Shown here one piece after another: positions 15,401 through 26,381 of a stretch of DNA of 64,000 nucleotides. A model generated the notes under the pieces. The model did no database searches and was not told where the DNA came from. It saw only the letters and a program-made list of their open reading frames with translations. Origin of the DNA: Chryseobacterium sp. StRB126 (lineage in GTDB: Bacteria; Bacteroidota; Bacteroidia; Flavobacteriales; Weeksellaceae); the NCBI RefSeq assembly GCF_000829375.1, contig NZ_AP014624.1:1302001-1366000 (forward strand). Reading direction: 5' to 3'. A program made the translations under genes and the position numbers. Position 1 is the stretch's first letter. Each line of letters starts with the position of its first letter.

Positions 15401-17273
15401 CAAGATGGATAAAAGCACTTTACAACCTCTGGTAGATCTTACAGTAGATGATATTAAAATGAATGGGAATGATATGGGAGATATTTCCATTTCAGCAACC
15501 AACGGGTTCTCACTAAATGTATATGATATTGATGTAAAGGTTCATTCTGCAGGAATCTTAGGAAATAACAGTTTAAATCTTACAGGGACTGTTAATAACA
15601 ATTCAGCGTCCCCGGATATTGATCTGACGGCAGAAATGCGTGATTTTGATCTGGCGTTTACCCAGCAGTTCGTTCAGACTATTTTTGGGAATCTCAGAGG
15701 TAAGGCAACGGGTGATCTTAAGATTAACGGAAAACTTAATAACCTTGATTATAGTGGCGATATCGCTTTGAAGGATTTTGGATTAAAACTTCTGTTTACA
15801 GGAGTAGACTATTCATTTGATGATAATGTAATCCAATTAACGAAGGGGCTTGCCATTCTTAACAATATTGAAGTACATGATGGAAGAACCAATTCCAAAG
15901 GAAATATTTCCGGGGCGATCAGGTTTGAAACACTTTCTTCCATGGGGATTGATCTGATCATGAGGGCAGATAATCTTTTAGTGCTAAACTCTACACAGAA
16001 GGATTCTGATCTGTTTTGGGGAAGAGTTTACGGTCAGGGTGATTTGTATGTATCCGGTCCTGTGTCCGGACTAAGTATAACGACTCCTAATATGAGAGCA
16101 CTTAACGGAAGTACCTTTACTTTTAACTCGAGTTCCACTTCAAATGTTGAAGAGTTCAAGATGCTGAGATTCCTGAAAGAAGGAAAAGACGGTTTGGTAA
16201 CGTTGGAAGAAAAGAAAAAAACAGGTGCCAATATGTATATTGATTTCAATTTGGCAGTAGATAAAGGAACTACGGTAAATGTATTGATTGGAGATGATGT
16301 AGGAAGTATCACTGTAAAAGGAACAGCAGATCCGTTGAGGTTCCAGATGAGCCGACAGGGAAATATTGCCATGAACGGTACCTATAAGGTTGATAACGGA
16401 ACATTCGTATCCAAAGCGATCCTTAACAAAACCTTCCAGATCCAGAAAAACAGCAGCATCAGATGGGATGGTGATGCGATGAAGCCGGCACTGGATATTA
16501 CAGCTAATTATGTAAGAATGGTTTCCAATGCGGGGGAATATCTGAGTATGGGTAAACTACAGCCTATAAGTATTCTGTTACAGGCTAATATTACTGAGTC
16601 TTTGATAGATCCTAAAGTGGAATTGAATGTTACGGCAATGGATGTTTCCAGCCAGGTAAGAGAAACGCTGGCTGCCAAAATGAGCCAGGAAGGAGAAAAA
16701 GTACTTCAGTTCGGTTCCGTTCTTCTACTGAGTACCTTTAATGTTTCCAATACCGGAGGAGTAGATGTGAATATGGGTAACGTCGCAGAATCACAAGGAT
16801 ATAACATGCTTCTGAAACAGCTTGGATCGGTTCTTAATACCATGAGTAATGAATTCCAGATCGACCTGAACTATGTGAAAGGTGACCAAAATTCAAATAC
16901 GGCAGACAGAGCGAATGCGGGAGTTAGCGTAGCCCTTTCACCAAGGATAAATATCAAGACCGGATTGGGTATTCCATTATCCAAAACAGAAGCAAATGCT
17001 ACCGGAGCACAGAACAATTATCTTTCAGGAGAAGGGTCTATAGAGTATGATTTGTCTAAGAAGAATGACGGTACTTTGGTGGTAAGAGGATATTCTAAAC
17101 CTACGAACATTGGAATGATCAGTACAAACGGAACTGCTAATCAAGCCTATGGAGTAGGGGTGATGTGGAGTAAAAGCTTCAATTCTTTGTTTAAAAAGAA
17201 GAAAAAAGACAAAAAAGTGTCTCCCGAGAAAACGGAAATAAAAACAGATTCTATAAAATCAAATGCTAAATAA
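12471..17273 (+). CDS. TamB-like translocation/assembly module protein (DUF490)
   Basis: The ATG at 12471 gives 1,600 residues. The cytoplasmic N-terminus is charged and helical (VQKTVENVEEKVRETVKEAS); a membrane anchor follows at about 78-100 (AKLLLILFWLGIVLIGGILI). More than 1,000 residues of repeated beta-strand, AsmA/TamB-type sequence follow. The final 350 residues match the DUF490 domain, with FQIQKNSSIRWDGD, VELNVTAMDVSSQV and EFQIDLNYVKGDQNS. TamB-like proteins bridge inner and outer membranes and take part in lipid transport or outer-membrane protein insertion; TamB function in this phylum is inferred. The longer frame from 12402 would overlap tsaD. Divergent spacing to tsaD is four bases. 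Confidence 0.9.
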   Translation: MAKLENNNENENKKSVAENLGDQVQKTVENVEEKVRETVKEASELASDAINHPVETAEEFGKQAMKDVTSYTWWAKLLLILFWLGIVLIGGILITINLPVTKQWAADQALKLVNNDFKSGFSTESVDVNYFGDVTIKGLKVKDYKGLNFIQAREFRADSDWISLAVNAISGKSNSLSFNSLTLVNADVKVITYKGDSISNFVRFTELFDDGKKRDPKKPPFQLNSRVQIIDSKVSIVNQNSEGDHGKWLTATKFNLKAPNVKVVGPNITALINNMSFVTSRWGKSHIVDTFSTELSLTKQFLSLKDLTLNTDHTLLQGAIKFNLHDGSWADFADKVRWDMNINQGSQVSGYDISYFVTNWDNIKPFNLSGKMTGPLNKFHLENFLIRNPDVNIATQTMKVDNLLNGHFSIETKNLSTDFTYKDLKAMMPTFISSKMKNFADDFGKLKYNGTAKVNPDQIYVDNGSLITGIGQAKISKLSLTGYSTAMPKYSGHLDVKDLNTSVITKNKSVGLISGNFDLNGQSFDVNTMRLTTKSQIASIEIMDKVINNLYLDGLLDHKKYNGLITVNDEQAKATIKGLIDFSTSKIMMDVNADVTQLNMNYFTNKPGSQMVSGQVEGKMSMSSINDLTLDVSANNLYFATATQKYNIPSAKLKTFIEAGGRVIDVDAPGAANGKISGKYNLGDLVGMVENGVGRILVGPPPRKLYRGQNFAMKFDVQQGLVNYFLPDLKLPNGAAVEGEYDGDSNNLILNLDATALKYIMTKEEELTDADKALAASNPDYQINNRKNLSKDSAMVDSVKVRINTANLAQQLYARINRLEYNKNIIKDLELKGNNENGNTLHLATVFKHGSPDDEINEKLKEYAINVDQSTDAAGDYVFRFEPTEVKFNEVSWAIDTSPELNHSITYRKNTGDFDIRNLRIYSDKSALFIKEAEFKSIKDFYVDADISDFAIEKLLEMQSGGNSMDIKGLANGSVKIKMDKSTLQPLVDLTVDDIKMNGNDMGDISISATNGFSLNVYDIDVKVHSAGILGNNSLNLTGTVNNNSASPDIDLTAEMRDFDLAFTQQFVQTIFGNLRGKATGDLKINGKLNNLDYSGDIALKDFGLKLLFTGVDYSFDDNVIQLTKGLAILNNIEVHDGRTNSKGNISGAIRFETLSSMGIDLIMRADNLLVLNSTQKDSDLFWGRVYGQGDLYVSGPVSGLSITTPNMRALNGSTFTFNSSSTSNVEEFKMLRFLKEGKDGLVTLEEKKKTGANMYIDFNLAVDKGTTVNVLIGDDVGSITVKGTADPLRFQMSRQGNIAMNGTYKVDNGTFVSKAILNKTFQIQKNSSIRWDGDAMKPALDITANYVRMVSNAGEYLSMGKLQPISILLQANITESLIDPKVELNVTAMDVSSQVRETLAAKMSQEGEKVLQFGSVLLLSTFNVSNTGGVDVNMGNVAESQGYNMLLKQLGSVLNTMSNEFQIDLNYVKGDQNSNTADRANAGVSVALSPRINIKTGLGIPLSKTEANATGAQNNYLSGEGSIEYDLSKKNDGTLVVRGYSKPTNIGMISTNGTANQAYGVGVMWSKSFNSLFKKKKKDKKVSPEKTEIKTDSIKSNAK
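12475..12482 (-). promoter_or_regulatory. tsaD promoter -7 box inside the TamB-like gene start
   Basis: The reverse strand reads TAACTTTG, a perfect TAnnTTTG box, eight bases before the tsaD ATG. These bases are also codons 2-4 of the divergent TamB-like frame. Confidence 0.45.
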
Positions 17274-17355
17274 TCGGAATATTTTAATGATTTTTATCAT
17301 CCGTGTTAATTATTGTTAATATTTGATATATATTTTTTAGTTAAATTATTTTTCG

Positions 17356-17363
17356 TAAATTTG
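17356..17363 (+). promoter_or_regulatory. Promoter -7 box of the Lrp-type regulator
   Basis: TAAATTTG matches TAnnTTTG exactly and lies 44 bases before the regulator ATG. The -33 element is not clear. Confidence 0.55.
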
Positions 17364-17407
17364 CAAAAAATACATAGATTTTTTAAAGAAATTGTAATTT
17401 AACTAAT

Positions 17408-17878
17408 ATGAACTATCAACTGGACGAAATAGACAAGAAGATTCTTGATTTCTTAGTAGAAAACACAAGAATGCCTTTTACAGAAATTGCTAAGCAGATG
17501 GATGTTTCTGCTGGGACAATTCACGTAAGAGTGAAAAAGATGGAAGATGCAGGTATTATTTTGGGATCATCTCTAAGCATCGATTATGGTAAGCTGGACT
17601 ATCATTTTACAGCTTTCATTGGAATCCTTTTGACAAAATCAAACCGTACTCAGGAAGTATTAAAAGAATTGTCAGTTATTCCTAACGTAATTGAAGCTAG
17701 TGTTATTTCCGGGAAATATAATATTTTCTGTAAAGTAAGAGCTAAGAATACGGATGATGCTAAAAGAATTATCTATCAGATTGACGACATTCAGGACGTA
17801 ATGAGAACTGAAAGTATGATCTCTATGGAAGAATTCCTAAGTGATAAAAATAGACTGATTAACGCAATCTCTATTTAA
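17408..17878 (+). CDS. Lrp/AsnC family transcriptional regulator
   Basis: A 156-residue regulator of the feast/famine family. Residues 5-55 form the winged helix-turn-helix (DEIDKKILDFLVENTRMPFT, then EIAKQMDVSAGTIHVRVKKM). Residues about 65-145 form the RAM effector-binding domain (VIEASVISGKYNIFCKVRA), which binds amino acids and assembles octamers. Length is typical. It is transcribed alone from a promoter box at 17356-17363 and ends at a terminator (17904-17935). The DNA targets and ligand cannot be read from the sequence. ansA and asnB in the same window make amino-acid control plausible but not shown. Confidence 0.93.
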   Translation: MNYQLDEIDKKILDFLVENTRMPFTEIAKQMDVSAGTIHVRVKKMEDAGIILGSSLSIDYGKLDYHFTAFIGILLTKSNRTQEVLKELSVIPNVIEASVISGKYNIFCKVRAKNTDDAKRIIYQIDDIQDVMRTESMISMEEFLSDKNRLINAISI

Positions 17879-17903
17879 TTCAAATTTTAAACGAATTACT
17901 ATA

Positions 17904-17935
17904 AAAGAACTTATGAAATTTCTCATAAGTTCTTT
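17904..17935 (+). terminator. Terminator of the Lrp-type gene, fused to the next promoter
   Basis: A 13-bp stem AAAGAACTTATGA / TCATAAGTTCTTT is followed by ATTTTTG. The last bases of the terminator are also the start of the promoter box at 17935-17942. Confidence 0.8.
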
Positions 17936-17942
17936 ATTTTTG
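17935..17942 (+). promoter_or_regulatory. Promoter -7 box for a possibly leaderless gene
   Basis: TATTTTTG is followed by only five bases (TACCT) before the ATG at 17948. The transcript probably starts at or near the start codon. The sequence around it, TTTATTTTTGTACCTATGGA, is identical to that before recR (59337 onwards). Confidence 0.5.
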
Positions 17943-17947
17943 TACCT

Positions 17948-18325
17948 ATGGAAGAATACAGCTATTTTGACGAGGATCCGAAGAAAGGATGGGGATTTGT
18001 ACTGGCATTTGCTGCCTTAATGTTGTTTACCTTAATGGGACTGGGAATAGATGTTGATGAATATCTTCAGCATGAATATCTTGAAATCCCGAGATGGTAT
18101 TTTTATGTCATCTTTTCAATCGATGCACTGATGGTGATAGGCCTTGTATTGATGTTCTTTTACAAAAAAATAGGAATCATTATATTCCCGGTTTTATTGG
18201 TGCTGCATTTCTTTATGCACAACTACTATCTGTCTACCTTCCTGTATACAGATGTTACCAATCTTTTCCTTTTTACAGGTTTTGGAATGCTGGCCATTAT
18301 TCCGAAGTGGAAATTTTTTAAATAA
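17948..18325 (+). CDS. Small integral membrane protein
   Basis: A 125-residue protein with three or four membrane segments: about 15-35 (GWGFVLAFAALMLFTLMGLG), 50-72, 75-95 and 105-122. It starts MEEYSYFDEDPKKG. No transporter or enzyme signature is seen and no family is recognised. It follows the Lrp-type gene but has its own promoter box and a terminator before it, so it is likely a separate unit. It converges with the SPASM maturase gene. Confidence 0.75.
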   Translation: MEEYSYFDEDPKKGWGFVLAFAALMLFTLMGLGIDVDEYLQHEYLEIPRWYFYVIFSIDALMVIGLVLMFFYKKIGIIIFPVLLVLHFFMHNYYLSTFLYTDVTNLFLFTGFGMLAIIPKWKFFK

Positions 18326-18383
18326 GAGTTTTTACCTCTCTTATTTCTATATAATGAAATAGCTTTTAAACATCGTTTAAAAG

Positions 18384-19463
18384 CTATTTTAGTTTATGTA
18401 ACTCATAATGATGAATGGCTTTCTGTTTTAGCGGATTTTTACTCCATTCTTTCCATTCATTGGTATAAGGATTGTAACCACACTTTAAAGGCTTTGATAT
18501 ATCCAGGTTTTCCGGAGTATAATGGGATCGTTCTGTATAAGCCCTGCAATCTGTACAGATATACCTGAATTCGCAATCTTTACAGCCTTCTATGCTGTCT
18601 TTGGTGATATTCCAATATTTTTTGAAACCGGGCTGTTCCAATGCTTCTTCCAGACTCGAATTGTAAATGTTTCCAAAGCTTTCTGGCATTAAAGGGCAGT
18701 TTTTGATATTTCCTTCTATATCTATTCCGATTTTCTTGTGTAAACAAGAATTATAATTGATAGCTTCTAGTACCTTTGGGAGATTGGTATTGAAATACTT
18801 CATATCCACCTTTCCGCAGGATGATATTTTGATGGGTTCTTTTACAAAGTTCAGATTGAACTTAAATTCATTTTTTGTTTTGAAAGGCTTCTTAGGACTC
18901 TGATAAAAAATAAGGCTATAAATTCTTTCTGTTGCATGGTCCAGTTTCTGAATAAGTGAGTGATCTATTTCGCTGTGAAAAGGAGAAATGATTTCTATTC
19001 CTGCAAGTACAGATGAGGTGAAGGTATAATCTATACTGATAAGTTCCTCTAAGGGTAACGGTTTTGAACTATAAATTACTAAATTTCTGATCTCAAGATT
19101 CTCTATAGAGTTTTTAAGCCTCTTTAAAAGGCTTATATCTTCAATTTCGATAAAGAGATCATTAATACGATTAGGTTCGGAATATTCGTAAGATAAGGCC
19201 GGAAAATTCAGGTCCCAGTCATTCTCTGTAATAAACCCATATTCGTTTTCCAATAGGATATCTAAATACTGCAGAACAATGTCCTGAGATTCTTTATCAT
19301 ATGTTTCCAGGATTTCCTCAATAGAATTCTTTTTCAGCTCTTCAATCAGATCATAAAATTCTAATGGATAAAGTTCAGATGTGTTTCTCTGGAGATCTGA
19401 AACTAAGATTCTATTAGCTCCTTTTGTAATTAAAATAGTACTGAATATATTAAAGTATCTCAT
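18384..19463 (-). CDS. SPASM-domain peptide maturase, grasp-with-spasm RiPP system
   Basis: The 359-residue protein probably acts with the ATP-grasp enzyme on the precursor peptide. The N-terminal part begins MRYFNIFSTILITKGANRIL. It is helical and has no CxxxCxxC radical-SAM motif anywhere. The C-terminal SPASM region contains NCPLMPESFGNIYNSSLEEA, CKDCEFRYICTDCRAYTERS and PLKCGYNPYTNEWKEWSK, giving enough cysteines for an auxiliary iron-sulfur cluster. Proteins with this architecture are named 'SPASM domain peptide maturase, grasp-with-spasm system' in public annotation; the reaction is not established. Start overlaps the 60-residue gene by four bases. It is the last gene of the operon. Confidence 0.85.
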   Translation of the reverse strand: MRYFNIFSTILITKGANRILVSDLQRNTSELYPLEFYDLIEELKKNSIEEILETYDKESQDIVLQYLDILLENEYGFITENDWDLNFPALSYEYSEPNRINDLFIEIEDISLLKRLKNSIENLEIRNLVIYSSKPLPLEELISIDYTFTSSVLAGIEIISPFHSEIDHSLIQKLDHATERIYSLIFYQSPKKPFKTKNEFKFNLNFVKEPIKISSCGKVDMKYFNTNLPKVLEAINYNSCLHKKIGIDIEGNIKNCPLMPESFGNIYNSSLEEALEQPGFKKYWNITKDSIEGCKDCEFRYICTDCRAYTERSHYTPENLDISKPLKCGYNPYTNEWKEWSKNPLKQKAIHHYELHKLK

Positions 19464-19642
19464 AAGAATCTTACCAGGAATTTGTAAGGTTTTGATGGTG
19501 TGTAAAAATCCGTCTGATATTTTTCACTTGCTATGGTTGTATTTGCAATAGACTTCTCTCTTTCTTTATTCTTTATCATTTCCATGTAGTTATAAATAAG
19601 AGGAAGCGGATGTTTTTCCTTGGGAGTAAAGTTCTTTTTCAT
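19460..19642 (-). CDS. 60-residue protein of unknown function coupled to both RiPP maturases
   Basis: The frame begins MKKNFTPKEKHPLPLIYNYM and ends in TPSKPYKFLVRFL. It is basic, lacks a GG leader and has no cysteine. ATGA-type overlaps join it to the ATP-grasp gene upstream (19639-19642) and the SPASM gene downstream (19460-19463), so it is very likely translated. It could be a substrate-delivery partner like the RRE peptides of other RiPP systems, a chaperone, or a second unusual substrate; none of these is shown by the sequence. No family is recognised by me. Confidence 0.6.
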   Translation of the reverse strand: MKKNFTPKEKHPLPLIYNYMEMIKNKEREKSIANTTIASEKYQTDFYTPSKPYKFLVRFL

Positions 19643-20541
19643 AAATAATTAGCGATTTCTTTTTCTAATGAATAGTTACAGATAACGGAATGTCCAAGAA
19701 ATTGACCTATGGCATTTACTTCTAAAAAATAAAACTTATCCCGGCCTTTGATGAGATCTAATGAACCGCAATTGAGGTCCAGAGACAGCATCAGCAAATG
19801 GATTCTTTCTTCAATACTTTTAGGGAGCTGATAAGGCACATTTCTGTTGGGGTTTTTATGGTTATACTTCCTGAAATCAATTTTGGTCTGTTCATCATTT
19901 TGCGAAAAGATCGCTGTTGACCAAACCTTCCCGTTCAGATAAAAGCTCCTGATTTCAAAATCTTTTTCAATTTTTTCCTGAAAGAATGTGATAAAGAAAT
20001 TTCCCTTTTGAGGTTCCTTCACTATTGAAGTATACATCATTCCTGTGGAGTCTTGAGTAATATTTTCTGCTCTGGGATTTCCGCCAATGGTTTTGATGAT
20101 GGTTTGATGGATTACTACTTCGTTGGTATTCTCAGCAAGAAAATAATCCGGAACCTCTAAACCCACTTTTTTTGCCTGCTCCAATACCAAGAGCTTATTT
20201 ACATCACTATTACTTTCTTTATTGATATGTCTTTTAGATTCTAATGTTTTTCTCACATAATCTTCCAGCCAGTGTTGATATTCATTCATATTAAGATTAA
20301 TGGATTCATTTTCGTAGCGCAACCTTCTGAAATTTAATCCTCCGTTTCTGTACCACACGCTGGTTATTTCATCAATATAGAATCTATTTCTTTTACTTAC
20401 CAGAAGAAGTCTCTTTTGTTCCGTTTTAATCTCAAAAATTTCATCTTCATGTACACGAATGAATTTTTTGTTCATGGCCAGAAGGTATTTGATCACTTCA
20501 TTGGTTGTATTTTCTTTATTTTCAGAAATAATGAGAATCAT
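19639..20541 (-). CDS. ATP-grasp peptide maturase, grasp-with-spasm RiPP system
   Basis: The 300-residue enzyme is an ATP-grasp ligase like those that install omega-ester or omega-amide bonds in microviridin-type peptides (graspetides). It carries a pre-ATP-grasp region (about 1-95), a central EVPDYFLAENTNEV segment, and the late ATP-grasp core with FEIRSFYLNGKVWS, LNCGSLDLIKGRDKFYFLE and VNAIGQF, in which Glu and Asn bind the metal ions. The SLD(F/L) and LEVNAxGQ pattern is shared with MvdC/MvdD-type enzymes. Assignment to the grasp-with-spasm group rests on that fold and on the SPASM partner two genes downstream. It overlaps the pseudogene-like lipoprotein frame by four bases. Confidence 0.88.
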   Translation of the reverse strand: MILIISENKENTTNEVIKYLLAMNKKFIRVHEDEIFEIKTEQKRLLLVSKRNRFYIDEITSVWYRNGGLNFRRLRYENESINLNMNEYQHWLEDYVRKTLESKRHINKESNSDVNKLLVLEQAKKVGLEVPDYFLAENTNEVVIHQTIIKTIGGNPRAENITQDSTGMMYTSIVKEPQKGNFFITFFQEKIEKDFEIRSFYLNGKVWSTAIFSQNDEQTKIDFRKYNHKNPNRNVPYQLPKSIEERIHLLMLSLDLNCGSLDLIKGRDKFYFLEVNAIGQFLGHSVICNYSLEKEIANYL

Positions 20542-21444
20542 TTTTGTTGTTTTTTAAGCTTATCGAAAAAATCTTTTGCAATCTTCATAGAGGTTTTCAT
20601 TCTGGGGAAACCTATGGCAGCACGGTTTTTATCAATTCTTGCAGAATCAGCAGCATTTAGGTTAGCCTCACTATAACGCATAAATATTCCATACATCGTT
20701 ACTCCATTATTTACATATTGATATTTATCTACCATTTCGATATAATCTCTTGGTGTGCATTCTCCGGATTTAACATAGGGTAGTAATTCCTTTTTGAAGT
20801 ATTCATAGTACTTCGTATAGGCCATATGGTTGAGCATAGTCCCCATAGACATGAGTTGGCCTTCTCTTCCCCGATGTCCTTTTTTTTTGTAATGATGGAT
20901 ACCCATAATTTTTTAAAGTCCATATTAAAAGCTCTGCATTTTTTTTGTCATTCATTTCAACAGTTTCTTTGATATGCCTGTTGTATTGGTCTCGTGTAAA
21001 AGCGATAGAGAATGAATCCACCAAAACCTGATTAAGGCTTTTTTTCCATTGTTGAAATTTTTGTTCCACCTGTACACTATCTATTCCGTGTCTTTTATAT
21101 AACTGGAAAAAATCAGATTCAGGTCTCCAGTAAGGTCCGGTTTGGGCTATTAGTTTATCCAGACTTTTTATTCCTCCAAAATTCTTATGGTATTTATCAG
21201 CCATTTTAATATAAACTTCATATTCAGTGATTCTTTCATTCTGAACTGGAGGATATTGCCTAAATAATTTTTTGTATTGTTTAATGGTAGCCAGAGTATC
21301 CTTTTGAACCCTGTGAATACTGTCAATAGTATAAACTTTATTGTAATAATCAATATAATTAAGTTCTCTGTTTTTGCAGGAAAAGACAGCTAAGCTGATT
21401 ATTAATAAAGTAAAAAGGTAATGCCTGTGCTTATAATTTTTCAT
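20538..21444 (-). pseudogene. Frameshifted paralog of the cluster lipoprotein
   Basis: Two frames (21444 down to 20803, and 20906 down to 20538) together match the intact 301-residue neighbour nearly end to end. The first begins MKNYKHRHYLF with a lipobox-like FSCKN, and the second ends AKDFFDKLKKQQK. The switch occurs at a run of nine A residues on the coding strand (T run at 20880-20888). Removing one A would join LKNYGYPSLQKK to GHRGREGQL and restore one protein of about 302 residues. The break may be a sequencing error, phase variation, transcriptional slippage or true decay. The stop overlaps the ATP-grasp start, so reading-through matters for coupling. Confidence 0.8.
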
Positions 21445-21674
21445 AAAGTTTTGTGTTGGTTTAGGTTAATAAATATAAATCTAAAATCTGTGATAAAATT
21501 ATTTTTTGAATTCTGACTTACATTTTTATCTTTCAGAGTTTTGATTCTATGAAAAACTATTTATTGGGCTTACAGATAGTAACTATTTTAACTTTAACAA
21601 CTTTATCTTCGGGAATGTGATGAATGTCATGTATAACTGAAATGTATTTAATGTTTTGTAATTATAGATAGCCA

Positions 21675-22580
21675 TTAGTGTTTTTGTTGCTTTTTAAGCT
21701 TATCGAAAAAAACTTTTGCAATCTTCATAGAGGTTTTCATTCTGGGGAAACCTATGGCAGCACGGTTTTTATCAATTCTTGAAGAATCAGCAGCATTTAG
21801 GTTTGACTCATCATAACGTATAAATATCCCGTACATCGTTATTCCATTATTCATATACTGATATTTATCTACCATATCAATATAATCCCTAGGAGTGCAT
21901 TCTCCGGATTTTACATATTTCAGTAATTCTGTTTTTAGGAATTCATAATATGGGGTATAAGCCATATGATTAAGTATGTCTATCATTGGCATAAAGACAC
22001 CATGGTTTCCGGTGAGTCCTATTTTCTGTTTTGATGGATATCCATAATTTTTAAGCGTCCATAGTAAAAGTTCAGCATTTTTTTTATCATTCATTTCAAC
22101 AGTCTCTTTGATATGCCTATTGTACTGATCTCTTTTAAAAGCAATGCTGAATGAATCTAATAAAACCTGATTAAGACCTCTTTTCCACTCTTGGTACTTT
22201 TGTTCCACCTGTACACTATCTATTCCGTGTTTTTTATATAGCTTAAAAAAATCAGATTCAGGACGCCAATAAGGTCCTGCCTGTGCGATTAATTTATTCA
22301 GACTTTTCATTCCTCCAAAGCTTTTATGGTATTTATCTGCCATTTTAATATAGGCTTCGAATTCTCTAATTCTCTCATTTTGAATCGGAGGATATTGCCT
22401 AAATAATTTTTTGTATTGTTTAATGGTGGCTAAAGTATCTTTATGGATTCTATGAATACTGTCTATGGTGTAAACTTTATTGTAATAATCAATATAATTA
22501 AGTTCTCTGTTTTTACAGGAAAAAGGAAGATAGCCTACCATTAAAATAGATAAGGAGACTATAAAAGTATTATTTCTCAT
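21675..22580 (-). CDS. Putative lipoprotein of the RiPP cluster, intact copy
   Basis: The 301-residue protein begins with a signal peptide and lipobox (ILMVGYLPFSCKN, Cys22), so it is probably exported and lipid-anchored. The rest is soluble and helical, with NYIDYYNKVYTIDSIHRIHK, ESDFFKLYKKHGIDSVQVEQ and a conserved C-terminal GFPRMKTSMKIAKVFFDKLK. No known catalytic motif is visible. It is a tandem paralog of the frameshifted frame at 20538-21444, with a 230-base gap that shows no clear promoter. The cluster context suggests a role in receiving, binding or protecting against the modified peptide, but this is guesswork. Confidence 0.75.
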   Translation of the reverse strand: MRNNTFIVSLSILMVGYLPFSCKNRELNYIDYYNKVYTIDSIHRIHKDTLATIKQYKKLFRQYPPIQNERIREFEAYIKMADKYHKSFGGMKSLNKLIAQAGPYWRPESDFFKLYKKHGIDSVQVEQKYQEWKRGLNQVLLDSFSIAFKRDQYNRHIKETVEMNDKKNAELLLWTLKNYGYPSKQKIGLTGNHGVFMPMIDILNHMAYTPYYEFLKTELLKYVKSGECTPRDYIDMVDKYQYMNNGITMYGIFIRYDESNLNAADSSRIDKNRAAIGFPRMKTSMKIAKVFFDKLKKQQKH

Positions 22581-22624
22581 AAAGTAGATTATTTAATGGT
22601 AAAAGTGAATTATTTAAAATATAA

Positions 22625-22659
22625 AACTCTCTTGGGACTAAATTAAGCCCCAAGGAGTT
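22625..22659 (-). terminator. Hairpin between precursor gene and the downstream RiPP genes
   Basis: The reverse strand forms stem CTTGGG / CCCAAG (22631-22636 and 22649-22654), extended by AACT / AGTT outside, followed by GTTTTAT. It lies 33 bases after the precursor stop. A leaky terminator here would give more precursor mRNA than maturase mRNA. Confidence 0.5.
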
Positions 22660-22691
22660 GAACTGTTATTAAATTCTAATAACTAAATTTT

Positions 22692-22889
22692 CTATAATCC
22701 TTGACAGCCAGTTCCTACATATAATGTACTCTGGAGATCTTTACCTTTCCAGGTTTTTTTATCATAACACGTTGCATTTTCTGAAGCTGTGTATGTATTA
22801 CCACCTTGAACTAATTTTAAATCTTCTCTTTGTAATTTCTTGTTTTCTGTAGAAGAGAAATTTCTCTTCATTCCAACTAATTTTTTCAT
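22692..22889 (-). CDS. RiPP precursor peptide, GG leader (grasp-with-spasm modified peptide)
   Basis: I choose the ATG at 22889, giving 65 residues; the longer in-frame start at 22982 adds an unrelated N-terminus. The leader, residues 1-30, reads MKKLVGMKRNFSS, then ENKKLQREDLKLVQGG. It ends in the Gly-Gly site cut by C39-type peptidases. The core, residues 31-65, starts NTYTASENATCYDKKTW and contains Glu37, Asp43 and Asp51 as possible donors. Thr, Ser and Lys are possible acceptors for omega-ester or amide links; Cys41 and Cys62 are also present. The leader resembles flavobacterial 'MKKL..MKRNFSSLE..KL' precursors. The gene is upstream of both maturases on the same strand. Confidence 0.85.
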   Translation of the reverse strand: MKKLVGMKRNFSSTENKKLQREDLKLVQGGNTYTASENATCYDKKTWKGKDLQSTLYVGTGCQGL

Positions 22890-23002
22890 TTTTGATATTT
22901 TTTTGTTGATTAAATTATGGTCTGCCATATAATCCCTGGCATTGGGTGATGTATTCTTATGTTTAATTTGTACTGTACACATACAATTTAAATACAGAAT
23001 TT

Positions 23003-23027
23003 CATCAACGTTGATGCTTCAAAACTA
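23003..23027 (-). promoter_or_regulatory. Precursor promoter box with palindromic operator candidate
   Basis: The reverse strand has TAGTTTTG (23020-23027), a perfect TAnnTTTG box. Directly downstream lies the perfect 14-bp palindrome CATCAACGTTGATG (23003-23016), which covers the predicted transcription start. The untranslated leader would be about 120 bases. An operator at the start site suits repressor control. Confidence 0.45.
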
Positions 23028-23496
23028 AAAATAAATACATCACTTAATTGTGATAATTGTTGTAATTTATTTGTAAATTTTATAACATATTTCTGTAATA
23101 TGTATAGGATGTATATTGAATTTATCCTGTTGATTTTTAGGGAGTTTTAATGAAAGTAAAGAAACTTTAAAATGATATGAATTATCATGTGAGAAGAAAT
23201 GGAAAAAAATAAATTAATAAAAATGGAAAACAGTATTATTTTCTATTGTACATAAAATATACACAAAAGTTAATTTGCATGCATGCTCTTAAATTGTGCA
23301 AAATTATAATGATTGTTAGGGAAGTATTTAATATATGAATAAATAATATTCTAAAGGGCTATATGCCTATGTGGTTTAAAAAGATTTCTAATATACAGGC
23401 AGCCAGGATATCTGGAGTTCATAAGCATACCTAAATTCAAGATTTATTGATAAGTTGGGACAAATAATTCGCGTATTCGTTACTGAACATTGTGAT
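23028..23496. other. Intergenic, no gene seen
   Basis: This AT-rich stretch between the RiPP promoter and the TPR regulator's stop has no frame longer than about 25 codons that looks coding, and no hairpin with a clear T tract. A weak 23-codon frame near 23363 is not supported by a ribosome site or neighbours. Confidence 0.6.
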
Positions 23497-25344
23497 TTAT
23501 TCAGAAAGTACTCCCTGAAAGAAAGTTTCCAGAGCTATATTTTCGTCCAGTCCTAATTTCTTTTTCAGGCGGTATTTGGTCATTCTTACACTTTTAGGTT
23601 CCACATTCAGAAGGTTGGCAATTTGTTTGGTATCCATTCCCAGATAAATATAGGCACAATATTTAAGGTCTAGTGGTGTTAGTTTCTGTTTAGCTTTTTC
23701 ATTGATGTTTTTGAAGAAATCAGGATGCAATTCCTGAATGGTAAATCTGATCTTTTCAAAATCATTATCTACACGGTTCTGTTCTTTTACAACCTGACTG
23801 ATATTAATATCTGTGTCCGAAAGCTGAGTCTGAAGCTGCTGGAGCACTTCATTTTTATGCTGAATATGGAGCTGGCTGGCTAGAACTTCACTCTGAAGCT
23901 TCTGCTGTCGTAAGGTAAGAAGTTCCTGTTCCGCTTTTAATCTGGCTTGTTCTTCTTTCTGAAGTTTGATCAGCATTTCTGTTTCGTGTTTTTCGGTATT
24001 GAGCTTCTTTTCTCTTTCTATGGAGTAACGTAGTTTGTAATGATAGGAGCGGAACATAAAAAATGCTCCAATTAATCCTATAATTCCCAGCCCTATATAC
24101 AGAAACTTTTCTTTTTTAAGGCTTAATGTTTTTTCTGTAAGAGCTTTTAATTCAGTCTCTTTTTTCTGTGATTGAAACTGAGCTTCCAGTCTTTTTGCTG
24201 TTTCTGCCTGTCCTTCGTTATAAAGAAGATTATTGTATTCTGCTACTTTCGTCTGATATTCGTAGGCTTTTTGGTAGTTTTTCTGTTTTTCATATAGTTT
24301 GGAAAGATCAGTGACTACATTAATCATTACAGGATAGTACACAGGCTTCTGAGTCAATAGAATCTGTTCTGCTTTTAAAAGATATTTTTCAGATAAGGCG
24401 TCATTCCGGTCACGGGTGGCAAGATTGCTGAGAATGCCGAGTGCACCCGCCTGGATTCCCTGATTTAAAGTGGTATGTTGGGTAAGGGTAAGAATTTCAT
24501 TAGCCTTATCCTGAATTTCCTTGCGGATTTCCGGAGTCATAACCGGATAGCTCAGGTAGTAATTGGCTAGGTTTAATAGAGCTAATGCATGAGCATGGGC
24601 TGAAACCTGCCCTGGAAACTGTTGATAAAGCGAAACTGCTTTTTTACACATCTCTATAACAAGCTTTAAATCTTTTAAATCTCCGGTTTTTTCATAAGGA
24701 AAGTAATAACAGACCGCCATGGCAGAATAAGCCGAACTCAGCATGTTTTTACTCCCAGATTTTTGAGCCAATTCCACCGCTTTCTGAGCATACACTGTGG
24801 CGTTTTTTGCATCATTCCATTCAGAGTGGATGCCGTATAGAAGATAATTGAGTTTTGCGTTCAGTAGAACTTCTGAGGGAAGTTTTTCAACCTGTGGAAG
24901 TGTTTTCTGAATAAGCTTTATGGTATTTTCAGATTCACCCAGAGTATTATTATAGTAGATATTCAGATAAGCAGCATATAGTGAAGCTGTTTTATCATTT
25001 GTTTTTTGAGCGGCTGTATTAGCATCATCAATAAGCTGTGGAACCTTATCATATTGAGATTGGTTGAGCTTTATAATTCCATTCTGAACCAAAGCCTTTA
25101 CTTCTTCCGTATAATTATGTTCATTTTTGGCCAGTTTTAATTGTTCCTGAACATATTTTTCAGCAACAGGATATTGGTCACTGACTCTGTAATATTCTGT
25201 AAGTTCATTATAAATTTTAAACTTTTCCTCAGCAGAATTGTTGCTCTTCAATTGATTTTTAAGACCATCAATGAATGTATTTTGTGCCGGGCAAAAAATA
25301 CAGATAAAGAATATAAAGTATAAAAAAGAGAAGTGCAGTTTCAT
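23497..25344 (-). CDS. TPR repeat, membrane-anchored regulator with LuxR-type HTH
   Basis: Start chosen at 25344 (MKLHFSFLYFIFFICIF), which gives a normal signal-peptide-like N-terminus and 615 residues; the track start adds five residues. Periplasmic tetratricopeptide-like helices run from about 25 to 365 (KNYQKAYEYQTKVAEYNNLL). A membrane segment is at about 395-415 (LYIGLGIIGLIGAFFMF), then a coiled coil rich in Gln and Glu. The C-terminus is a helix-turn-helix like those of two-component regulators (LTPLDLKYCAYIYLGM, then IANLLNVEPKSVRMTKYRLK). Such one-protein sensors are common in Bacteroidetes; the signal and targets are unknown. It is divergent from the gene run at 25567. Confidence 0.9.
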   Translation of the reverse strand: MKLHFSFLYFIFFICIFCPAQNTFIDGLKNQLKSNNSAEEKFKIYNELTEYYRVSDQYPVAEKYVQEQLKLAKNEHNYTEEVKALVQNGIIKLNQSQYDKVPQLIDDANTAAQKTNDKTASLYAAYLNIYYNNTLGESENTIKLIQKTLPQVEKLPSEVLLNAKLNYLLYGIHSEWNDAKNATVYAQKAVELAQKSGSKNMLSSAYSAMAVCYYFPYEKTGDLKDLKLVIEMCKKAVSLYQQFPGQVSAHAHALALLNLANYYLSYPVMTPEIRKEIQDKANEILTLTQHTTLNQGIQAGALGILSNLATRDRNDALSEKYLLKAEQILLTQKPVYYPVMINVVTDLSKLYEKQKNYQKAYEYQTKVAEYNNLLYNEGQAETAKRLEAQFQSQKKETELKALTEKTLSLKKEKFLYIGLGIIGLIGAFFMFRSYHYKLRYSIEREKKLNTEKHETEMLIKLQKEEQARLKAEQELLTLRQQKLQSEVLASQLHIQHKNEVLQQLQTQLSDTDINISQVVKEQNRVDNDFEKIRFTIQELHPDFFKNINEKAKQKLTPLDLKYCAYIYLGMDTKQIANLLNVEPKSVRMTKYRLKKKLGLDENIALETFFQGVLSE

Positions 25345-25447
25345 GAAGTGAAAGTACAAAAATTGCGGATACCCATCAATGATTCAAGTTAAAAAATGAA
25401 AATGTAGTCGGATTTTAAATAGTTGTTAATTAGTTGTTTGTGATGAG

Positions 25448-25467
25448 TTGTAGACACTTTGTAGACA
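25448..25467. repeat. Direct repeat TTGTAGACA at one-helical-turn spacing
   Basis: TTGTAGACA occurs at 25448-25456 and 25459-25467, 11 bases apart. A related TTGTAGTTG follows near 25492. The pair is upstream of the nine-gene run starting at 25567 and could be a regulator site. Confidence 0.4.
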
Positions 25468-25566
25468 TTGTTTTTTTGGGGTGAAGTTGTTTTGTAGTTG
25501 CATGAAAAACTGGAGTTATGTTTTTCCGTTGCAATTTTGAAACAGGAAAAAATCAAAAAAATTATC

Positions 25567-25887
25567 ATGGACAACAAAACATTATCTATCGTATCATACA
25601 TTACCATTATCGGATGGTTGATTGCTTTTATATCAGGAAAAGATAAAACAGACAGCCTTTTAAGATATCATCTTAAACAGTCATTGGGAGTTGTTATTCT
25701 TTCTTTTATTCTCTCAACTATTCTTGGAATTTTGATTTCGGTTACACATCTTGGTATACTGGGTATAATTGCTGTTCTGCCATTGGTACTGATGATTATT
25801 GGTGCTATTAATGCTGCTAATGAGGTTGAAAAACCTTTGCCGTTAATCGGAAAAATGATTGAAGATAAATTTTCATTTATCAGTTAG
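25567..25887 (+). CDS. DUF4870-like small membrane protein
   Basis: The ATG at 25567 is preferred (MDNKTLSIVSYITIIGW); the upstream in-frame ATG at 25498 adds a polar stretch that breaks the family pattern. The 106-residue product has three membrane segments: about 5-20, 40-65 (LGVVILSFILSTILGILI) and 70-90. It matches the Tic20/DUF4870 layout, including GKDKTDSLLRYHLKQSLG in the first loop. It heads a forward run of nine genes that ends near 30377. The family function is unknown. Confidence 0.8.
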   Translation: MDNKTLSIVSYITIIGWLIAFISGKDKTDSLLRYHLKQSLGVVILSFILSTILGILISVTHLGILGIIAVLPLVLMIIGAINAANEVEKPLPLIGKMIEDKFSFIS

Positions 25888-25907
25888 AGTGTCGAATACT
25901 TACAGGG

Positions 25908-26381
25908 ATGGAAGAATTTAAACATTTAAAAAGAGAAGGAACAGAATATCAGGTAAAGCAATACCTGTCTTTACAGCATATTATAGTGATTGCTTGGCTT
26001 CTGATTTCGATTATTGTGATGGTTAATACCAGTTATCTGAAAACAGGAATCATTATGTTGATATTTTCATTGTTGCTGACGATTGTTTCCTTTATGCCAC
26101 CAAAGGTTTGTTTTGATCCAGCGTTAAATTGTCTTACTATTCTTAACCGAGGCTTAAACCATCGGAAATTTACTTATGATCTTAAAGATTTTGAAGGATT
26201 TGAGTTGCAGATCATGTATATTGGCTTCATTCCTTTAGGGTGTTATTTATATGGGAATTTTAAGAATGTATCCCGTTTCAAGCGTCCGGTTATATCTCAA
26301 TCCTTCAGTAAGAAAACCATGCAGGAAGTGGTGAATGAACTGGAGGATCTTAATATAAAGCCCAACATAACATCTATTTAA
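25908..26381 (+). CDS. Two-membrane-segment protein with PH-like C-terminal domain
   Basis: The 157-residue protein has two adjacent membrane segments (about 27-42 and 48-64, LKTGIIMLIFSLLLTIVSF) and a cytoplasmic beta-rich domain. The motif FTYDLKDFEGFELQI, then YIGFIPLG, is repeated in the protein at 29402 (TYDLKDFTNFHV, then YMGFI), so the two are paralogs. The fold of such proteins resembles bacterial PH domains, but this is inference. It lies 20 bases after the DUF4870-like gene. Confidence 0.7.
   Translation: MEEFKHLKREGTEYQVKQYLSLQHIIVIAWLLISIIVMVNTSYLKTGIIMLIFSLLLTIVSFMPPKVCFDPALNCLTILNRGLNHRKFTYDLKDFEGFELQIMYIGFIPLGCYLYGNFKNVSRFKRPVISQSFSKKTMQEVVNELEDLNIKPNITSI

Follow-up and report, generated by a model that had tools for sequence, protein, structure and literature searches.

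Makarova 2022 described 190 branch-5 graspetide loci, nearly all of which carry a cluster-23 lipoprotein and a small LPL protein (PMC8939145; this paper, PMC13003496 and PMC13097080 are cited throughout from the part of their text that was available). The same paper favors LPL as a PqqD-like helper of the SPASM protein, leaving room for contact with the ATP-grasp enzyme, and reports that PFFARFL leaders start graspetide catalysis. In vitro, a leader can also function when supplied as a peptide of its own (PMC13003496). Here we analyze a window of 64,000 nucleotides (nt), positions 1302001 to 1366000 of the 5.5-Mb genome of Chryseobacterium sp. StRB126, with all coordinates counted within the window. 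Judged by its sequence, the minus-strand block 22889-18384 is a grasp-with-spasm graspetide locus and the predicted source of a ring-closed peptide. The locus shares with the branch-5 loci of PMC8939145 an ATP-grasp enzyme, a SPASM protein of family TIGR04193, an LPL protein, a lipoprotein that fits the cluster-23 description, diverse GG precursors and a home in Bacteroidetes. By these parts, rather than by a tree, it appears to match Carter group 14 as well as Makarova branch 5. The locus type is already known, because parts of its description have been published for the 190 branch-5 loci, and what is added is one further member.

We lean, with a little over even confidence, towards a division of labor in which the ATP-grasp enzyme would close the rings, joining Thr and Ser hydroxyls of the core to Asp and Glu acids with ATP and possibly forming Lys amides. 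The SPASM protein would be an adaptor that grips the conserved leader through an RRE-like domain at its N-terminus and presents the core to the ATP-grasp enzyme, with LPL working as the partner of that enzyme. A C39 transporter supplied by another locus would cleave after GG and export the product, and an exported lipoprotein, fitted to the core, would encounter the mature peptide once it has left the cytoplasm.

A first-pass annotation of the window had assigned minus-strand open reading frames (ORFs) for the precursor, the ATP-grasp enzyme, the 60-residue protein and the SPASM protein to the grasp-with-spasm family. All four ORFs stand where it had put them, and TIGR04192, TIGR04193 and TIGR04139 all match above the curated NCBIfam cut-offs (Table 1). 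It had also treated the lipoproteins and the 60-residue protein as unrecorded extras, which does not hold, as both fit the cluster-23 and LPL descriptions in the available text of PMC8939145.

To compare neighborhoods, 62 loci were assembled: 60 from the genus (40 high-scoring and 20 lower-scoring, among the TIGR04193 matches listed), the second grasp-with-spasm locus of the same genome and the window locus. The division into 42 window-type and 20 divergent loci rests on TIGR04193 score and not on a tree, and SPASM starts were taken mechanically as first start codons. An ATP-grasp gene lies beside the SPASM gene, and a small ORF between the two, in 62/62 loci. We conclude that the ATP-grasp gene and the small ORF are joined to the SPASM gene beyond chance. 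The synteny check proposed in the first-pass annotation thus found the neighbors kept: among window-type loci, a lipoprotein matched its own profile in 40/42 (L069 and L086 being without a match; 1/20 in divergent loci), and LPL was found by profile in 42/42, of which 36 had seeded the profile. TIGR04193 exceeded its cut-off in 73/98 genomes of the genus and in 10/296 genomes across the phylum, five of the ten lying outside the genus.

The LPL protein and the SPASM protein

The window protein has the features given for LPL in PMC8939145, with which it was compared by description only, namely an LPL motif, a length of about 60 residues and a place between the ATP-grasp and SPASM genes. It contains HPLPLIYNYME and a C-terminal end of the PxKxLxRLL type. 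Across the 42 window-type loci the profile found 43 LPL proteins, every one of which starts at most 55 nt from the ATP-grasp stop. According to the available text of PMC8939145, LPL is always directly upstream of the SPASM gene, whereas here it lies 70 to 958 nt from the SPASM ORF in 6/42 loci while still beside the ATP-grasp gene. The two are separated by another gene in L057, L063, L065 and L092 and by a shorter gap in L073 and L087; in L073 the LPL distance is uncertain, as an apparent frame change lies close to the start of the SPASM gene. Moreover, L064 and L117 each encode two ATP-grasps, two LPLs and one SPASM protein (tblastn, retrieved stretch).

Covariation was calculated for 38 loci, four of the 42 being dropped: L062 (split ATP-grasp), L069 and L086 (no lipoprotein) and L093 (no precursor). 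LPL distances covary more with those of the ATP-grasp enzyme (0.67 given SPASM) than with those of the SPASM protein (0.16, p 0.007 given ATP-grasp). LPL motifs also recur beyond the window-type loci, as counted with patterns that were written after the sequences had been inspected. The LPh motif is present in 41/42 window-type loci and in 10/21 divergent small proteins (shuffle mean 0.6), the C-terminal motif in 42/42 and 12/21 (shuffle mean 1.6), these counts being equaled in none of 2000 shuffles, and [LF]PxxF/Y occurs in 16/17 sister-branch small proteins (15 distinct). For the survey of the LPh and C-terminal motifs, leaders were trimmed at the first GG, by which some were shortened. For the LPL position, the claim of PMC8939145 that the small proteins of other loci are unrelated can therefore be rejected in part, since LPL motifs recur in divergent and sister-branch loci. 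We conclude that the coupling of LPL to the ATP-grasp enzyme, as read from gene arrangement and alignments, is stronger than that to the SPASM protein, and that its position, copy number, distance covariation and motif recurrence make partnership with the ATP-grasp enzyme the likelier role of LPL. Such coupling was not described in the literature searched, which covered few subscription journals.

Model and fold searches indicated that the SPASM protein consists of a perhaps RRE-like N-terminus at about 2-78, a beta-alpha part at about 100-210 and a C-terminal SPASM domain. Seven cysteines, C240, C256, C294, C297, C303, C306 and C328, follow the seven-Cys SPASM pattern, which is kept in 120/120 homologues among the matches listed. 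The radical S-adenosylmethionine (radical-SAM) motif CxxxCxxC was not found in the window protein, whose eight cysteines all lie at 216 or beyond, and it occurs in 0/120 of the same homologues and 0/63 locus ORFs. Of the seven SPASM cysteines, 19 relatives from a sister branch of ATP-grasp plus SPASM-like loci (L161-L179) keep four in 16 cases, one in L164 and none in two. A search of PDB sequences with the SPASM profile gave no convincing match, and the top Foldseek match of the model was the thioether enzyme CteB. The apparent order of RRE-like domain, beta-alpha region and SPASM domain is that of CteB and other RRE-radical-SAM-SPASM enzymes; unlike them, the window protein has a short beta-alpha region and no detected radical-SAM motif. 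We conclude that the SPASM protein is probably an adaptor rather than a radical enzyme, because CxxxCxxC was not found in any homologue tested and because cysteines have been lost in the sister branch. The earlier term "SPASM-domain maturase" was thus overstated, and the protein likewise differs from the radical-SAM enzyme named in the available text of PMC8939145. The absence of the motif was not reported in the literature searched, again with few subscription journals covered, and may already be on record.

Alternatively, as proposed in PMC8939145, the SPASM protein could be active as a second maturase, installing C-C, C-O or thioether links with help from LPL as a PqqD-like chaperone. Consistent with that proposal are the SPASM pattern in every listed homologue, the CteB match and the presence of at least one Cys in 27/38 cores, but neither the missing radical-SAM motif nor the sister-branch relatives that retain just four, one or none of the seven cysteines fit a radical enzyme; 11/38 cores have no Cys, and LPL stands apart from the SPASM gene in six loci and outnumbers it in two. 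We consider a second maturase unlikely. Its proponents could also point to the spacing of LPL, which lies at most 60 nt from the SPASM gene in 36/42 loci and overlaps it in four loci where the ATP-grasp gene is 21 to 55 nt off. That spacing weighs against an ATP-grasp partner and SPASM adaptor, as do the low predicted local distance difference test (pLDDT) values of the supposed RRE strands in the SPASM model and the outcome of a trial of the LPL motif as an equivalent of the PFFARFL leader, which was not significant against the in-genus motif, with p < 0.05 against shuffles of the same protein in only 8/42 LPLs (median p 0.20). Under a further explanation LPL would merely couple translation of the ATP-grasp and SPASM genes or be a stray small ORF, in either case without a function as a protein. 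The four-base overlaps with both neighbors at this locus and the length of only 60 codons agree with it, but conservation at the protein level (by the patterns written after inspection) and the persistence of LPL in L057, L063, L065 and L092 despite an intervening gene before SPASM make it very improbable.

Precursor, ATP-grasp enzyme and a possible leader in trans

The precursor starts with the ATG at 22889 and carries GG at residues 29-30, ahead of a core that contains Thr, Ser, Lys, Asp and Glu. The CxxCx5CxxC motif after which TIGR04139 is named was not found in the window precursor, which has two cysteines. A leader signature is present in 41/42 window-type loci, the exception being L093. 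Two precursors were found in L064, and one was recognized in L117.

PDB relatives of the ATP-grasp enzyme are 5ig9 (E 5.2e-15), 7m4s, CdnC (7mgv) and 5ig8. It would use ATP to link core side chains. The leader-binding acids of MdnC are E191/D192; the loop opposite them aligns poorly, with E at position 176 in 26/41 and E or D at position 178 in 38/41 window-type sequences, and with Q at 178 in the window enzyme. The ATP-grasp enzymes of the microviridin and chryseoviridin systems (MdnC 5ig9, CdnC 7mgv) are homologous, and the same genus has precursors with KKPFFASFLEKQ leaders. In contrast to those precursors, the window precursor has a leader without KKPFFASFLEKQ, and LPL may take that role. 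A PF12559 (microviridin/chryseoviridin-type) precursor match also occurs elsewhere in this genome, at G000:C1:4265373-4265570, and such a match is found in 78/96 genomes of the genus. The rosaritide system (MirB/MirC, PMC13097080) shows that a graspetide synthetase can depend on a partner encoded alongside it; that partner, MirC, is PPIase-like, whereas the partners here would be LPL and the SPASM protein.

One way in which LPL could act on the ATP-grasp enzyme is a split-leader system. The precursor leader would only dock on the RRE of a SPASM pseudoenzyme, LPL would activate the ATP-grasp enzyme in trans, with LPxxF/Y replacing the PFFARFL-type motif, and a single SPASM protein might be shared between two ATP-grasp/LPL pairs (L064, L117). 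We offer this proposal tentatively and regard it as doubtful. A PFFARFL-type motif was not found in the leader of the window precursor. With an 8-residue query, the best-scoring site placed a Pro on the motif Pro in 38/42 LPLs, and the median score was 12 versus 4 for precursors. With a 12-residue query, precursors scored above LPLs (median 13 versus 10), and p < 0.05 was reached in 8/42 precursors and 5/42 LPLs. Likeness between LPL and PFFARFL that lacks significance is by itself no proof.

Lipoproteins, DUF6624 and export

Two paralogous lipoproteins had been annotated at the locus. Lipoprotein A is intact, as are the copies of relatives, and B is indeed its paralogue, but B is split into the overlapping ORFs 21444-20803 (213 residues) and 20906-20538 (122 residues), the frame being shifted close to a stretch of nine A by what could be a mutation, a sequencing error or a slippage site. 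The window locus thus departs from branch 5 in having a duplicated lipoprotein, one copy of which is broken, and no adjacent transporter. Cys22 is invariant in 39/39 sequences of lipoprotein alignment A1, and lipoprotein A is predicted to be a bacterial lipoprotein with a signal peptide and a lipidation Cys. Its C22, H205 and R273 fit the cluster-23 description of a conserved His and Arg, a comparison made with the description in PMC8939145 only.

A Pfam scan of the lipoproteins found no family, and a PDB sequence search with the lipoprotein profile gave no convincing match. PF20329 (DUF6624; gathering score 27 bits) did not match lipoprotein A at E <= 1 and was not among the best 25 of 30 families listed for the other 38 sequences of A1. 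By contrast, hhalign of the lipoproteins versus a DUF6624 set (A3, which includes four proteins from grasp loci) gave a probability of 98.7 and an E of 1.5e-16 over 118 columns, and a DUF6624 profile built from proteins elsewhere matched lipoprotein A at E 6.6e-8. At E <= 1e-3 that ten-protein profile matched 52/8377 ORFs, of which 45 were lipoprotein ORFs (45/50), six lay upstream of the ATP-grasp gene in divergent loci and one lay downstream in L113; reversed sequences gave no match. For eight of the ten proteins in the profile, every TIGR04193 match listed for the same genome is on a different contig or no closer than 160 kb (one genome has none); for those of G008 and G018 the distance is only partly established. 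Against universality, a DUF6624-type protein occurs in 7/20 divergent loci and 1/19 of the sister set. DUF6624 matches over and under the cut-off also lie beside SPASM genes in several genomes of the genus, for example in L097, L098 and L112. We conclude from these profile comparisons that the lipoproteins are divergent, exported DUF6624 relatives. The link was not reported in the literature searched, with few subscription journals covered, and DUF6624 was named only in Carter 2026 (PMC13097080). The available text of that paper reports that DUF6624 is highly frequent in groups 18, 20, 23 and 42, and group 14 is not mentioned in this regard; the form at the window locus scores under the Pfam cut-off. 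PF20329 matches were present in 39/40 genomes of the genus searched, several of the proteins inspected being longer, with a signal-like start and a repeat-like N-terminus.

The lipoprotein would most likely be an immunity or capture protein and less likely an extracellular processing enzyme. Core covariation (partial r, 38 loci, with gene order as a confounder) was 0.58 with the lipoprotein, 0.37 with ATP-grasp, 0.25 with LPL and 0.02 with SPASM; after removal of four near-duplicates the lipoprotein and SPASM values were 0.54 and -0.01. Although confounded by gene order, this pattern agrees with contact between the lipoprotein and the mature product. For DUF6624 (PMC13097080) and for cluster 23 (PMC8939145), an extracytoplasmic enzyme of biosynthesis or processing has been suggested, a role that we regard as doubtful for this lipoprotein. 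Fifteen DUF6624 proteins share invariant residues, namely an N, a G, QH, DR, the two Q and the G of QxYGxQ, and an R; N168, G180, H205, D238, Y250 and R273 of the window family, each invariant or at least 90% conserved, match invariant or nearly invariant positions among them, which favors an enzyme. In lipoprotein A, however, neither Q of QxYGxQ is present, nor are the Q of QH and the R of DR, and Foldseek with its model found only weak matches, none at E <= 0.001 and mostly to helical-repeat proteins.

A C39 transporter lies within the retrieved stretch of 17/62 loci. None was found in the stretch examined at the window locus, and the transporter would therefore come from another locus. The genome carries two PF03412 matches, one of them in its second grasp-with-spasm locus at about 946-956 kb (L035, G000:C1:943000-962000), where a C39 transporter, an HlyD protein and a VKOR-thioredoxin-like protein adjoin. 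Two further Cys-rich GG peptides are also encoded there.

Layout of the locus and its meaning

Table 1. Predicted features of the locus, in window coordinates
Feature	Coordinates	Strand	Evidence
Graspetide precursor, 65 residues, leader MKKLVGMKRNFSSTENKKLQREDLKLVQGG and 35-residue core with two Cys	22692..22889	-	TIGR04139 45.1 bits, cut-off 40
Terminator-like hairpin in the gap between precursor and lipoprotein A	22631..22654	-	Terminator scan; RNA fold z -4.8
Putative lipoprotein A, intact, 301 residues	21675..22580	-	Signal-peptide-like start with Cys22; helical N-terminus; C-terminus a divergent DUF6624 relative
Putative lipoprotein B, paralogue of A, frame-changed	20538..21444	-	ORFs; DNA alignment of B with A; intact relatives
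Predicted ATP-grasp graspetide synthetase, 300 residues	19639..20541	-	TIGR04192 343.9 bits, cut-off 230; PDB relatives
LPL-type small protein, 60 residues, predicted ATP-grasp partner	19460..19642	-	LPL profile; positions and covariation
SPASM-domain protein, 359 residues	18384..19463	-	TIGR04193 419.3 bits, cut-off 175; PF13186 23.9 bits, cut-off 21.5; TIGR04085 32.3 bits, cut-off 27
Terminator-like hairpin 3' of the SPASM gene, before the convergent gene 17948-18325	18355..18391	.	Terminator scan

The first-pass annotation had read a chain of four-base overlaps as one translation unit. The overlaps are real, at 20538-20541, 19639-19642 and 19460-19463, but it is just the 3' fragment of lipoprotein B that reaches into the start of the ATP-grasp gene. 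The presence of a hairpin between the precursor and lipoprotein A means that transcription may differ along the six genes, and the hairpin may allow precursor output above enzyme output. A terminator-like hairpin follows the precursor in 39/42 window-type loci (by a hairpin pattern that had no shuffled control; z-scores across loci come from mononucleotide shuffles). The scan found 7 terminator-like sites in the stretch versus 2.9 expected, and no Rfam family matched in 17000-26000.

Upstream of the precursor and on the same strand, 23497-25359 encodes a 620-residue protein that is TPR-like and has, by eye, an HTH-like region at its C-terminus. A relative lies upstream in 12/62 loci, including the window, and is a candidate regulator. 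L118 (G095) holds a seemingly decayed cassette, with fragments of ATP-grasp and lipoprotein genes between an intact LPL and SPASM. The neighborhoods of divergent loci L097-L116 include VKOR-like proteins, LytTR regulators, a lantibiotic-dehydratase C-terminal domain protein and Porph_ging proteins.

The grasp-with-spasm system is common in the genus, as its frequency among the 98 genomes attests, yet no product chemistry for such systems was found in the literature searched. The DUF6624 link unites two groups of uncharacterized proteins from separate papers. If the SPASM protein is a pseudoenzyme, a hunt for a second cross-link in these peptides would seek a feature that does not exist. If LPL is a trans-acting leader, it would represent a natural separation of leader and substrate in ATP-grasp macrocyclization, which would be useful for peptide engineering.

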